A program made the position numbers and the translations under genes. A stretch of DNA of 64,000 bases from Janthinobacterium sp. 61 (GTDB taxonomy: Bacteria; Pseudomonadota; Gammaproteobacteria; Burkholderiales; Burkholderiaceae_D): assembly GCF_002846335.1 (NCBI RefSeq), contig NZ_PJMQ01000001.1:4402001-4466000 (forward strand). The letters run 5' to 3'. The notes under the pieces are model-generated. The model saw only the letters and a program-made list of their open reading frames with translations. It was not told where the DNA came from and made no database searches. Positions 5,153-53,053 of this stretch are shown in pieces. The stretch's first letter is position 1; every line of letters begins with the position of its first letter.

Positions 5153-5201
5153 TTCTGCCATGGCACAAGTCAAGCCAGCACAAAGTGCATTCCCTGATAT
5201 A

Positions 5202-5217
5202 CTGTATATAAACACAG
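5202..5217 (+). promoter_or_regulatory. LexA (SOS) box in front of the UdgX cassette
   Basis: The 16-mer CTGTATATAAACACAG is CTGT-N8-ACAG. With flanks, 5200-5219 reads TACTG...CAGTA, matching the E. coli LexA consensus at every fixed position. The site ends 16 nt before the ATG at 5234, where a bound repressor would block transcription. It is about 50 nt from the ModE site of the divergent modA operon. Confidence 0.87.
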
Positions 5218-5233
5218 TATATTGAGGCACCCC

Positions 5234-6466
5234 ATGGAACTGACGGACAAGCTGGAAATCCTGGCCGACGCGGCCAAGTACGACGCGTCCTGCGCCAGCA
5301 GCGGGGCGCCCAAACGCGATTCCATCGGCAAGGACGGCTTTGGCGCCACCTCCGGCATGGGCATCTGCCACAGCTACACGCCGGACGGGCGCTGCGTTTC
5401 GCTGCTGAAAGTGCTGCTGACCAATTACTGCCTGTACGATTGCCAGTACTGCGTCAACCGCCGTAGCTCGAACGTGCCGCGCGCGCGGTTTACGGTGGCC
5501 GAGGTGGTCAAGCTGACGAGCGACTTTTACCTGCGCAACTATAGCGACGGCCTGTTCCTCAGTTCCGGCATCATCCAGTCGGCCGACTACACGATGGAGC
5601 AGCTGGTGCAGGTGGCGCGCGAGTTGCGCGAGGTACACCAGTTCCGCGGCTATATCCATCTGAAAACCATCCCCGACGCCGATCCGGCCCTGATCGCGCA
5701 GGCGGGCCGCTATGCCGACCGGCTCAGCGTCAATATCGAACTGCCGACGCAAGACAGCGTGCAAAAGCTGGCGCCGGAAAAAAGCGTGCATACGATTAAA
5801 CTGGCAATGGGCGCCATCCGCCGCAAGCTCGATGAGAAAGCGGAAGAACCGCGCTCGCCGCGCTTCGCGCCGGCCGGGCAAAGCACGCAAATGATCGTCG
5901 GCGCCGACGCCAGCGACGACCAGCAAATTCTCTCCACTGCCGAGACCTTGTACGGCAGCTACAAGCTCAAGCGCGTCTACTACTCGGCCTTCAGCCCGAT
6001 CCCCGACAGCCCGAAAAGCGTGCCGCTGGCGCCGCCGCCGATGCTGCGCGAACACCGGCTGTATCAAGCCGATTTCCTGCTGCGCAGCTATGGTTTCCAG
6101 GCCAGCGAACTGCTGCCCGCCACGGGCGGCAATCTGGCGCTCGATATCGATCCCAAGCTGGCCTGGGCGCTGGCGCACCGCGAACATTTTCCGCTGGACT
6201 TGAACCGTGCGGCGCAGCACATGATCGCCCGCGTGCCCGGCATCGGCCTGCGCAACGCGCAGCGCATCGTCGACCTGCGCCGGCTGCGGCAAGTGCGCTA
6301 CGCCGACTTGTCGCGCTTGCGCTGCAGCATGAAGAAAATCGCCCCCTTCATCATCACGGCCGACTACTTTCCCGCGCGCGATACCACCGCCTCCGAACAC
6401 CTGCGCCGCGCCATGGCGGAAGCGCCGCAGCAGATGAATTTATGGCCGGAGCTGCAGGTCGCATGA
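5234..6466 (+). CDS. Putative DNA modification/repair radical SAM protein (TIGR03916 type)
   Basis: A 410-residue radical SAM protein with the [4Fe-4S]-binding CX3CX2C motif at Cys66, Cys70 and Cys73 (YCLYDCQYC). A helix-hairpin-helix-like segment sits near the C-terminus (ARVPGIGLRNAQRIVDLRR), which suggests DNA contact. The architecture matches the radical SAM family always found beside DUF4130 and UdgX proteins; its chemistry is not established. ATG 5234 is preferred over the upstream TTG because GAGG lies 6 nt before it. The stop overlaps the next start (ATGA). A LexA box directly upstream predicts induction by DNA damage. Confidence 0.9.
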   Translation: MELTDKLEILADAAKYDASCASSGAPKRDSIGKDGFGATSGMGICHSYTPDGRCVSLLKVLLTNYCLYDCQYCVNRRSSNVPRARFTVAEVVKLTSDFYLRNYSDGLFLSSGIIQSADYTMEQLVQVARELREVHQFRGYIHLKTIPDADPALIAQAGRYADRLSVNIELPTQDSVQKLAPEKSVHTIKLAMGAIRRKLDEKAEEPRSPRFAPAGQSTQMIVGADASDDQQILSTAETLYGSYKLKRVYYSAFSPIPDSPKSVPLAPPPMLREHRLYQADFLLRSYGFQASELLPATGGNLALDIDPKLAWALAHREHFPLDLNRAAQHMIARVPGIGLRNAQRIVDLRRLRQVRYADLSRLRCSMKKIAPFIITADYFPARDTTASEHLRRAMAEAPQQMNLWPELQVA

Positions 6467-7290
6467 GTACAGTGGTGCGGCTGGCGCAGTCGTTCGACGA
6501 GTGGCGCGCGGCCGCACGTGAACTGATCGCGCGCGGCGTGCCGCCTGCCGACGTGGCCTGGCAATCGCAACCCGGCGATGGCGACCTGTTTTCCTCCACG
6601 CCGGAGGCAACGGATAACAGCGCTCCGCTGCTGCGCCTGCCCCGTCCCCTGGTCGAATTGCTGGAAGGCGCCGCCTGTTTCAACGTGCATGACCGCTGGG
6701 CATTCTTATATCAAGTGCTCTGGCGCTGGCAGCTGGGCCAGCACGACGTGATGTCGCCAGCCGATACGGACGGCGCGCGCCTGCACGCGATGGCCAAGGC
6801 CGTGCGCCGCGAGGAGCACGACATGCATGCGTATGTACGCTTCCGCGAACGCAGCGAGGCCGAGGGCGCCCCCCGCTTCGTCGCCTGGTTCGAACCCACG
6901 CACGACGTGCTGCCGCAAGTGGCGCACCACTTCGCGCGCCGCATGGGATCTACCAGCTGGATGATCGCCACGCCCCAAGCCAGCATGCTGTGGGATGGCG
7001 CATCCTTGCATGCGGGACCGGCGCTGCTGCGCGGCGCTGCCGATATCGACGATGCCGGTGAAGCCCTGTGGCTGACCTACTACCGCAGCATCTTCAATCC
7101 CGCGCGCGTGAATGCGGATTTGCTGCATAGCCATATCCCCTCGCGTTTCTGGAAAAATCTGCCGGAAGGCGCCATCGTGCCTGCTATGCTCAGCGGCGCC
7201 GCCAACGGCGAACGGCGCACGGGCCAGACGGCCAGCGTAGGCCAGCGCAGCGGCGCCACCATGATCCCGATTGCCGCCGAGCGCGCCTAG
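6463..7290 (+). CDS. DUF4130 / TIGR03915 DNA metabolism protein (partner part of UdgX)
   Basis: A 275-residue protein starting MSTVVRLAQSFDEWRAAARELIARG, with the family features RRMGSTSWMIATP and YRSIFNPARVN. In most proteobacterial relatives this domain is the N-terminal half of a roughly 480-residue protein ending in the UdgX domain. Here a TAG at 7288-7290 (after IAAERA) closes the frame, and the UdgX part resumes in the same frame 24 nt later. The product may therefore be a separate domain, a read-through precursor or a broken fusion. It overlaps the radical SAM gene by 4 nt, so it lies in the same LexA-controlled unit. Its biochemical role is unknown. Confidence 0.85.
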   Translation: MSTVVRLAQSFDEWRAAARELIARGVPPADVAWQSQPGDGDLFSSTPEATDNSAPLLRLPRPLVELLEGAACFNVHDRWAFLYQVLWRWQLGQHDVMSPADTDGARLHAMAKAVRREEHDMHAYVRFRERSEAEGAPRFVAWFEPTHDVLPQVAHHFARRMGSTSWMIATPQASMLWDGASLHAGPALLRGAADIDDAGEALWLTYYRSIFNPARVNADLLHSHIPSRFWKNLPEGAIVPAMLSGAANGERRTGQTASVGQRSGATMIPIAAERA

Positions 7291-7314
7291 CCAGCGCGCG
7301 AACTGCCCACCACC

Positions 7315-7926
7315 TTGGACCAGTGCCGCCGCTGCGAGCTGTGGCAGCACGCTACGCAAGCCGTGCCCGGCGTCGGGCCGCTACAGGCGCGCATCATGCT
7401 CGTCGGCGAACAACCGGGCGACCAGGAAGACCTGGCGGGCTTGCCGTTCGTTGGCCCGGCTGGCGCGCTGCTGGACCAGGCGATTCACGATGCGGGCATG
7501 GCGCGCGACAGCATCTATCTGACCAACGCCGTCAAGCATTTCAAGTGGGAACCACGCGGCAAGCGCCGCTTGCACAAGACACCCGCGCAACGCGAAATCC
7601 TCGCCTGCCATGGCTGGCTGGAAGAAGAGATCGAGCGTGTCAAACCAGAGGTGATCGTGGCACTGGGCAGCACGGCGTTAAAGTCCGTTCTGCAAGATGG
7701 TTCAGCCACCATGACGCCGCTGGTCGGCACGCCCATCGAGCACGACGGACGCTGGGTGGTGACCGTATATCACCCGTCGTATGTGCTGCGCGCGCCGGAC
7801 GAGGCGAGCCGGCGGCAGGCATACGCGGTGATAGTCGACGGCTTGAACCAGGCGATGCGGCTACTAGAAGGCCAGGATCACAGCGTCGACGCTGGCACTT
7901 CCTGCCCCTCGTCACGCCGCGCGTAG
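7315..7926 (+). CDS. UdgX-type uracil-DNA glycosylase superfamily protein
   Basis: A 203-residue family 4/5-like uracil-DNA glycosylase fold with GEQPGDQEDLAG (residues 31-42), NAVKHFKWEPRG, the UdgX-defining KRRLHK loop (83-88) and HPSYVLR. In Mycobacterium smegmatis UdgX the loop histidine forms a covalent bond to the deoxyribose at uracil sites; the equivalent here is His87. The only nearby start is TTG 7315, with no convincing Shine-Dalgarno. The frame continues upstream through eight sense codons to the TAG ending the DUF4130 gene, so independent translation is uncertain. The 3' end overlaps the convergent transporter gene by 49 nt. All motifs of the active site are intact. Confidence 0.85.
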   Translation: MDQCRRCELWQHATQAVPGVGPLQARIMLVGEQPGDQEDLAGLPFVGPAGALLDQAIHDAGMARDSIYLTNAVKHFKWEPRGKRRLHKTPAQREILACHGWLEEEIERVKPEVIVALGSTALKSVLQDGSATMTPLVGTPIEHDGRWVVTVYHPSYVLRAPDEASRRQAYAVIVDGLNQAMRLLEGQDHSVDAGTSCPSSRRA

Positions 7927-52933: not shown

Positions 52934-53053
52934 AACGCCTAGCAAAACCGTAGCGAGCGGCAGTGAGTTGTGGCTAAGAAGCGCAGCTGTGCGAATGCAC
53001 AGTGAGCATCGCAGGCCGCAAATCGCGACGCACAGTAGGTTTTGTTAGGTGTT
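52934..53053. repeat. Structured intergenic repeat, copy B
   Basis: A 120-nt element, homologous to 16257-16389, bounded by AACGCCTAGCAAAACC (52934-52949) and GGTTTTGTTAGGTGTT (53038-53053). Compared with copy A the terminal stem shows compensatory changes (G-C to A-U, A-U to G-U), and the internal hairpin is CTGTGC-GAAT-GCACAG instead of CCGTAC-TCT-GTACGG. Its right arm ends 4 nt before the rsmD ATG and contains AGGTG, the best Shine-Dalgarno for that gene. Confidence 0.88.

Follow-up and report, generated by a model that had tools for sequence, protein, structure and literature searches.

Genes and features of the operon

The window, i.e. the whole 64-kb stretch of Janthinobacterium sp. 61 that was analysed, contains a LexA (SOS) box followed by a predicted two-gene operon for a radical SAM protein, a DUF4130 protein and a UdgX protein (Table 1). 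The radical SAM protein passes the curated cut-off of TIGR03916 by far and carries the CX3CX2C motif noticed in the sequence-only reading, while the general PF04055 model stays just below its Pfam cut-off (27.6 bits). Its predicted fold matches radical SAM enzymes. The HhH-like tail that had also been proposed is real but weak: PF14520 and PF12836 both match residues 305–350, and both remain below their Pfam cut-offs. By sequence, no solved relatives were found for the radical SAM protein (best E 0.28) or for DUF4130.

Table 1. Positions in the window of the predicted operon, its LexA box and related features
Feature	Position	Strand	Remarks
LexA (SOS) box, TACTGTATATAAACACAGTA	5200–5219		core CTGT-N8-ACAG at 5202–5217; conserved 5′ of orthologues
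Core of the box, CTGTATATAAACACAG	5202–5217	+	16 nt between its end and the ATG at 5234
Radical SAM protein, 410 aa, TIGR03916 (rSAM_link_UDG)	5234–6466	+	NCBIfam 550.2 bits, cut-off 343.5
CX3CX2C motif, CLYDCQYC	5429–5452		in the radical SAM protein
HhH-like tail	~6146–6283		in the radical SAM protein
DUF4130/TIGR03915 part of second gene, 275 aa	6463–7290	+	NCBIfam 194.7 bits, cut-off 112.25; PF13566 127.2 bits
In-frame amber codon, TAG	7288–7290		between the DUF4130 and UdgX parts
First possible start codon after the amber codon, TTG	7315		
UdgX (TIGR03914) part of second gene	7315–7926	+	NCBIfam 244.4 bits, cut-off 189.95
UdgX cross-link loop, KRRLHK	7561–7578		
Second CTGT-N8-ACAG site, CTGTGCGAATGCACAG	52987–53002		

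The start codon of DUF4130 overlaps the stop codon of the radical SAM gene as ATGA. The DUF4130 and UdgX parts lie in one reading frame that is broken by a single in-frame amber codon, so that the three genes of the sequence-only reading are two, the second of which is split here. That reading was right that the three families occur together, but they do so as a two-gene operon with a DUF4130–UdgX fusion. The same operon is present in Caballeronia sp. Sq4a and Phaeobacter inhibens, where the radical SAM gene is followed by a ‘UdgX family uracil-DNA binding protein’. Among 72 loci of the taxonomic family, three of which (L060, L064 and L098) are cut off before both domains can be seen, the fusion is uninterrupted in all 68 readable relatives and interrupted in this genome only, which thus lacks the single uninterrupted frame of the proteobacterial operon. 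Judged from these frames, the architecture is that of two genes, often with a fused second one.

The UdgX part exceeds the TIGR03914 cut-off and contains the GEQPG, KRR-x-H loop and HPS motifs, which the abstract of PMC10359453 gives as UdgX motifs. It aligns with the UdgX of M. smegmatis (6ajo, 1.3e-49) including the KRR-x-H loop, and the KRRLHK loop noticed earlier is indeed there. Decay of this part after the amber codon was considered and not detected: its amino-acid and silent differences lie in or near the range among nine same-genus genomes. With the alignment intact through the loop and no surplus of substitutions in the UdgX part, three explanations fit: a recent stop, continued production of UdgX, or a sequencing error at the amber codon. 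In this strain, the radical SAM and DUF4130 proteins are probably made normally, and UdgX is probably made in small amounts or as a separate protein. Elsewhere in the genus, genome G237 (L104) shows a lesion of another kind: its box and its fused DUF4130–UdgX frame are intact, but its radical SAM gene is spread over two reading frames.

The box in the host genome

The sequence-only reading had placed a full-consensus SOS box 16 nt before the first gene, and its site and spacing hold. The core alone is not decisive: the window contains two CTGT-N8-ACAG sites where 0.53 are expected, and at least two occurred in 10 of 100 shuffles, so the context has to decide. The second site of the window is probably another repeat or hairpin rather than a LexA box, since CTGTGC-N4-GCACAG palindromes recur in the genome. 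A promoter scan gave one weak match, CTGATA-18-TATATT (9/12), which overlaps the box.

We then compared the box with other sites in the host genome (6.0 Mb, one contig), which contains 62 CTGT-N8-ACAG palindromes, compared to 29 occurrences of the reversed motif. The extended 20-mer TACTGTATATNNANACAGTA occurs without mismatch at three places, one of which is the box studied here; if up to three mismatches are allowed, each strand has 16 occurrences, compared to 1 and 4 for the control. Two boxes lie directly upstream of the host lexA gene, and a 20-mer identical to the radical SAM box sits 5′ of dnaE2. Similar boxes, among the best of this genome, precede imuA, recA, dinB, radA, parE, an NAD kinase gene (with recN, recognized by eye, behind it) and a FAN1-like nuclease gene; for dnaE2 and parE, the scores come from fragments truncated at the end of the locus and stay below the full-length cut-off. 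The radical SAM box therefore matches the motif before the host lexA and is of the type carried by the genome's own SOS genes.

Conservation of the box and LexA specificity

A search of the taxonomic family with TIGR03916 gave matches in 73 of 245 genomes, with 72 loci above the cut-off, one in each genome; the counts leave out two fragments, an additional one in G203 and one below the cut-off in G115. CTGT-N8-ACAG is present within 250 nt upstream of 69 of these 72 loci, which are not independent since the family genomes are related. On the same loci, three permuted motifs of equal spacing gave 0, 0 and 1, shuffles gave 0.16, and spacings of 7 or 9 instead of 8 gave 0 and 1. The upstream search of homologous cassettes that had been proposed with the sequence-only reading is thus positive among orthologues. 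The 69 boxes are spread over 10 of 11 genera and, except for one at 167 nt (L068), lie at 9–34 nt. With 39 different spacers among them, the half-sites persist while the middle drifts, and the profile is symmetric around TATACTGTAT....A.ACAGTA with little conservation outside it. The three loci lacking an exact box are two of genus g8, which has a divergent LexA (L033 and L034), and one with a single mismatch at 61 nt upstream (L099).

Two wider searches added 89 loci: in the order, 22 of 399 genomes passed the cut-off, of which six belong to the family, and in the phylum 84 of 398 did so, of which 11 had been counted before. GTTC-N7-GTTC is the LexA motif of Alphaproteobacteria. Within 250 nt upstream, this motif or its complement is present at all 54 loci from other classes of the phylum, and CTGT-N8-ACAG at none of them; a permuted control matched 1 of 54, and spacings of 6 or 8 gave 0 and 2. 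These 54 loci appear to be alphaproteobacterial, given the motif itself and the named example of Phaeobacter inhibens, whose box is of the GTTC-N7-GTTC type. Boxes were also found in the named examples Caballeronia sp. Sq4a and Cupriavidus sp. EM10.

The loci of the same order or class are more varied. An exact CTGT-N8-ACAG occurs within 250 nt upstream of 15 of 35; between −100 and +20, which includes boxes overlapping the start, 18 of 35 have an exact site and 25 of 35 one within a single mismatch, while two permuted controls gave 0 of 35 each. Among the remaining 10 loci, those of f44 (two) and f52 (one) gave no full-length LexA match. Group f25 (three loci, one counted among the 25 and two among the other ten) has a divergent LexA, and by eye the motifs upstream of its radical SAM genes are equal or close to that before its own lexA in all three. 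TTGTAC-N5-GTACAGTA-like palindromes precede both lexA and the radical SAM gene in this group (L125, L126 and L128; L237–L239) and represent a candidate non-canonical LexA motif.

Overall, the box is conserved at orthologues and follows LexA specificity, with misses at seven loci despite a lexA gene in the genome: f57 (0 of 3), f9 (0 of 1), f26 (0 of 1, its 5′ part frameshifted) and g8 (0 of 2). In f57 and g8, the motif before lexA was looked for before the radical SAM genes and not seen. All three f57 loci (L186, L187 and L191) have an inverted repeat of the type GGTCTCATCCAATGAGACC, changed in L186, ~20 nt before the radical SAM gene.

The best 80 distant loci comprise 73 of Bacteroidota type (72 Bacteroidota and one Fibrobacterota-type record) and seven proteobacterial ones. 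Two Bacteroidota motifs are given in passages of PMC8565304 (i.e. CTAA-N5-TTAG and GGA-N5-TCC). The former is exact at 17 of the 73 Bacteroidota-type loci, compared to 0.13 by shuffling, and lacking at 56; the latter is present at 10 of 73, compared to 1.0 in shuffles and 4 and 2 in two controls. None of the tested motifs, CTGT-N8-ACAG included, was found at the seven proteobacterial loci (Psychrobacter 3, Acinetobacter 2, Moraxella 1 and Brachymonas 1). As far as upstream motifs tell, most of the relatives examined keep a LexA-type switch even where the repressor reads a different DNA word.

Core and optional parts

DUF4130 follows the radical SAM gene at 76 of the best 80 distant loci, mostly of Bacteroidota, while no UdgX was detected at any of the 80 when sought with the UdgX of this window in a flank of up to 2.5 kb. 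Nor was UdgX detected in f25 (three loci), f44 (two) and f49 (five), with ~1.5 kb of flank examined. By this gene content, UdgX is an optional part of the system, and the radical SAM and DUF4130 pair is therefore the part to assay first.

These counts bear on the suggestion of the sequence-only reading that the radical SAM enzyme resolves or processes the covalent UdgX–DNA adduct. The family arrangement agrees with it, with the radical SAM gene directly followed by the DUF4130–UdgX fusion, and so does the loop histidine, which every loop form listed contains (up to five forms per group, covering 65 of the 69 family loci). However, a radical SAM protein devoted to UdgX-trapped DNA is disfavoured by the optional nature of UdgX, and the many loci with the pair and no detectable UdgX, within the flanks given above, make this function improbable.

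Presence, absence and neighbours

The cassette is matched in 11 of the 19 same-genus genomes listed and in none of the other eight, all of which keep modA at the locus. In three of the eight (L330, L333 and L334), modA directly adjoins the gene that follows the cassette in this genome, which we take to be bile-acid-symporter-like, and the sites are clean and empty; four (L328, L329, L331 and L332) have other sequence between the two genes, and in one (L327) the following gene was not seen. No box was seen around modA in the stretch examined of the eight genomes, so box and cassette come and go together. Its absence from eight of the 19 genomes, the frameshift in G237 and the split frame here indicate that the operon is dispensable.

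Such patchiness (matches in 73 of 245 genomes of the family and in 11 of the 19 listed for the genus) and the clean empty sites could also mean that the cassette is a mobile or phage-defence module, for which LexA control serves to sense danger, rather than a housekeeping repair operon. Relatives of the radical SAM protein on 158 plasmid records and in 10 phage records, eight of them unannotated, point the same way. Against this, 142 of the 158 plasmid records are typed non-mobilizable, 10 of the 11 same-genus copies lie beside modA, PADLOC gave no match for any of the three proteins and PHROG none for the radical SAM and DUF4130 proteins. We set a defence system aside on the PADLOC result and give the wider mobile-module explanation a small chance. 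A chance site, or one serving the divergent modA, has the 0.53 sites expected per window in its favour and is of negligible probability, being rejected on the conservation at 69 of 72 orthologues, on the boxes at 59 of the 62 family loci that lack modA as a neighbour (10 of 72 have it) and on the boxless sites of the eight cassette-less genomes that keep modA.

Relation to known systems

COG4277 is presumably an HhH/radical SAM protein. Passages of PMC8565304 describe a COG1573–COG4277 uracil-glycosylase repair operon under LexA-type control in Bacteroidetes, and report earlier evidence of its SOS control in Verrucomicrobia and Alphaproteobacteria. This is very probably the same gene pair as here, although its LexA motifs differ; the same passages suggest a uracil-glycosylase repair system and do not treat beta- or gammaproteobacterial copies. 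To the extent that these passages describe it, the SOS link is thus not new in general, being in print for three groups with what is very probably the same system. No report of the beta- or gammaproteobacterial operon was found among the titles and abstracts listed in literature searches, a coverage that excludes most subscription papers. On the sequence comparisons made here, the new elements are (i) the conservation of the box in Beta- and Gammaproteobacteria, (ii) its tracking of LexA specificity and (iii) the joint presence or absence of box and cassette at one site. The result is well supported as an extension of a known kind that corrects the architecture and the favoured mechanism.

The UdgX of M. 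smegmatis is proposed in passages of PMC10359453 to shield abasic sites, its physiological role being called largely unknown there. The UdgX part shares its family with that protein (PDB 6ajo and relatives), with the GEQPG, KRR-x-H loop and HPS motifs in common. The solved entry, however, is a 209-residue single domain, whereas the UdgX part here has a DUF4130 partner, fused in relatives and cut off by the amber codon in this strain.

Spore photoproduct lyase carries CX3CX2C, and the protein studied here shares with it and with SplB-like proteins this motif and the radical SAM class. It belongs, however, to an NCBIfam family of its own and shows no sequence match to a solved lyase; the lyase is also absent among the structure matches listed for it, a listing that excludes nothing. 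Parts of PMC8565304 mention that SplB is SOS-regulated in several species. Part of PMC3765255 predicts DUF4130 to be an enzyme with a role in mutagenesis and links it to uracil glycosylases and SplB-like radical SAM proteins. A radical SAM protein, its type unspecified in the passages concerned, is among the LexA targets in Gram-positive bacteria, Balneolaeota and Streptomyces (PMC7739468 and PMC9380542). The likeness of DUF4130 to DHH/RecJ is a fold hint only, and a profile comparison with RecJ was unsuccessful.

Proposed mechanism

The comparisons strongly support the earlier proposal of a damage-induced, LexA-controlled cassette, through the boxes of the host's own SOS genes and the counts of 69 of 72 and 54 of 54 loci. 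By these comparisons, the operon is almost certainly under LexA control, and switch and operon very probably do belong to the response to DNA damage. The operon thereby acquires a trigger that is well defined and open to test. The persistence of LexA-type control across lineages with different LexA recognition sequences is an argument that the target of the enzymes is SOS-inducing damage.

We consider it likely that the whole is a LexA-repressed two-gene DNA-repair operon, in which the radical SAM and DUF4130 proteins act on damage and UdgX is an add-on. LexA bound to the box, at the promoter just before the start codon, would keep the operon off; RecA filaments on damaged DNA would lead to self-cleavage of LexA and turn it on. 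The DUF4130(-UdgX) protein, translationally coupled to the radical SAM enzyme, would then be produced along with it; the enzyme, anchored to DNA through its HhH-like tail and with DUF4130 as partner, would carry out radical chemistry on a damaged nucleotide. That the radical SAM protein acts on a DNA lesion, as the sequence-only reading had put it, is plausible, and we regard radical chemistry on such a lesion as an evenly balanced proposition, drawn from family knowledge. UdgX would come as an optional extra, excising uracil and then protecting the abasic site left behind by attaching to it, a role that family knowledge makes about as probable as not. The substrate, once found, could reveal a new direct-reversal repair reaction.

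A more far-reaching and rather doubtful version would make the radical SAM and DUF4130 pair a core SOS effector that repairs directly, by radical chemistry, a class of lesions outside the known pathways, its LexA site being rebuilt by selection as LexA specificity changed; DUF4130, as a degenerate scaffold of RecJ/Cdc45 type, would bring the enzyme to DNA, with UdgX as an optional anchor.

Two further sites in the host genome concern other genes. The 16-mer CTGTATATAAACACAG recurs at C1:508403-508422 (L021), 38 nt before the FAN1-like nuclease gene (PF21315 and PF18081), which suggests that a nuclease of crosslink-repair type may be under SOS control. A LexA-like box, AACTGTATATACGTACAGTA, lies at C1:2679850-2679869 (L030), 13 nt before a second radical SAM gene, of the PA0069 family (NF033668, 483 bits).
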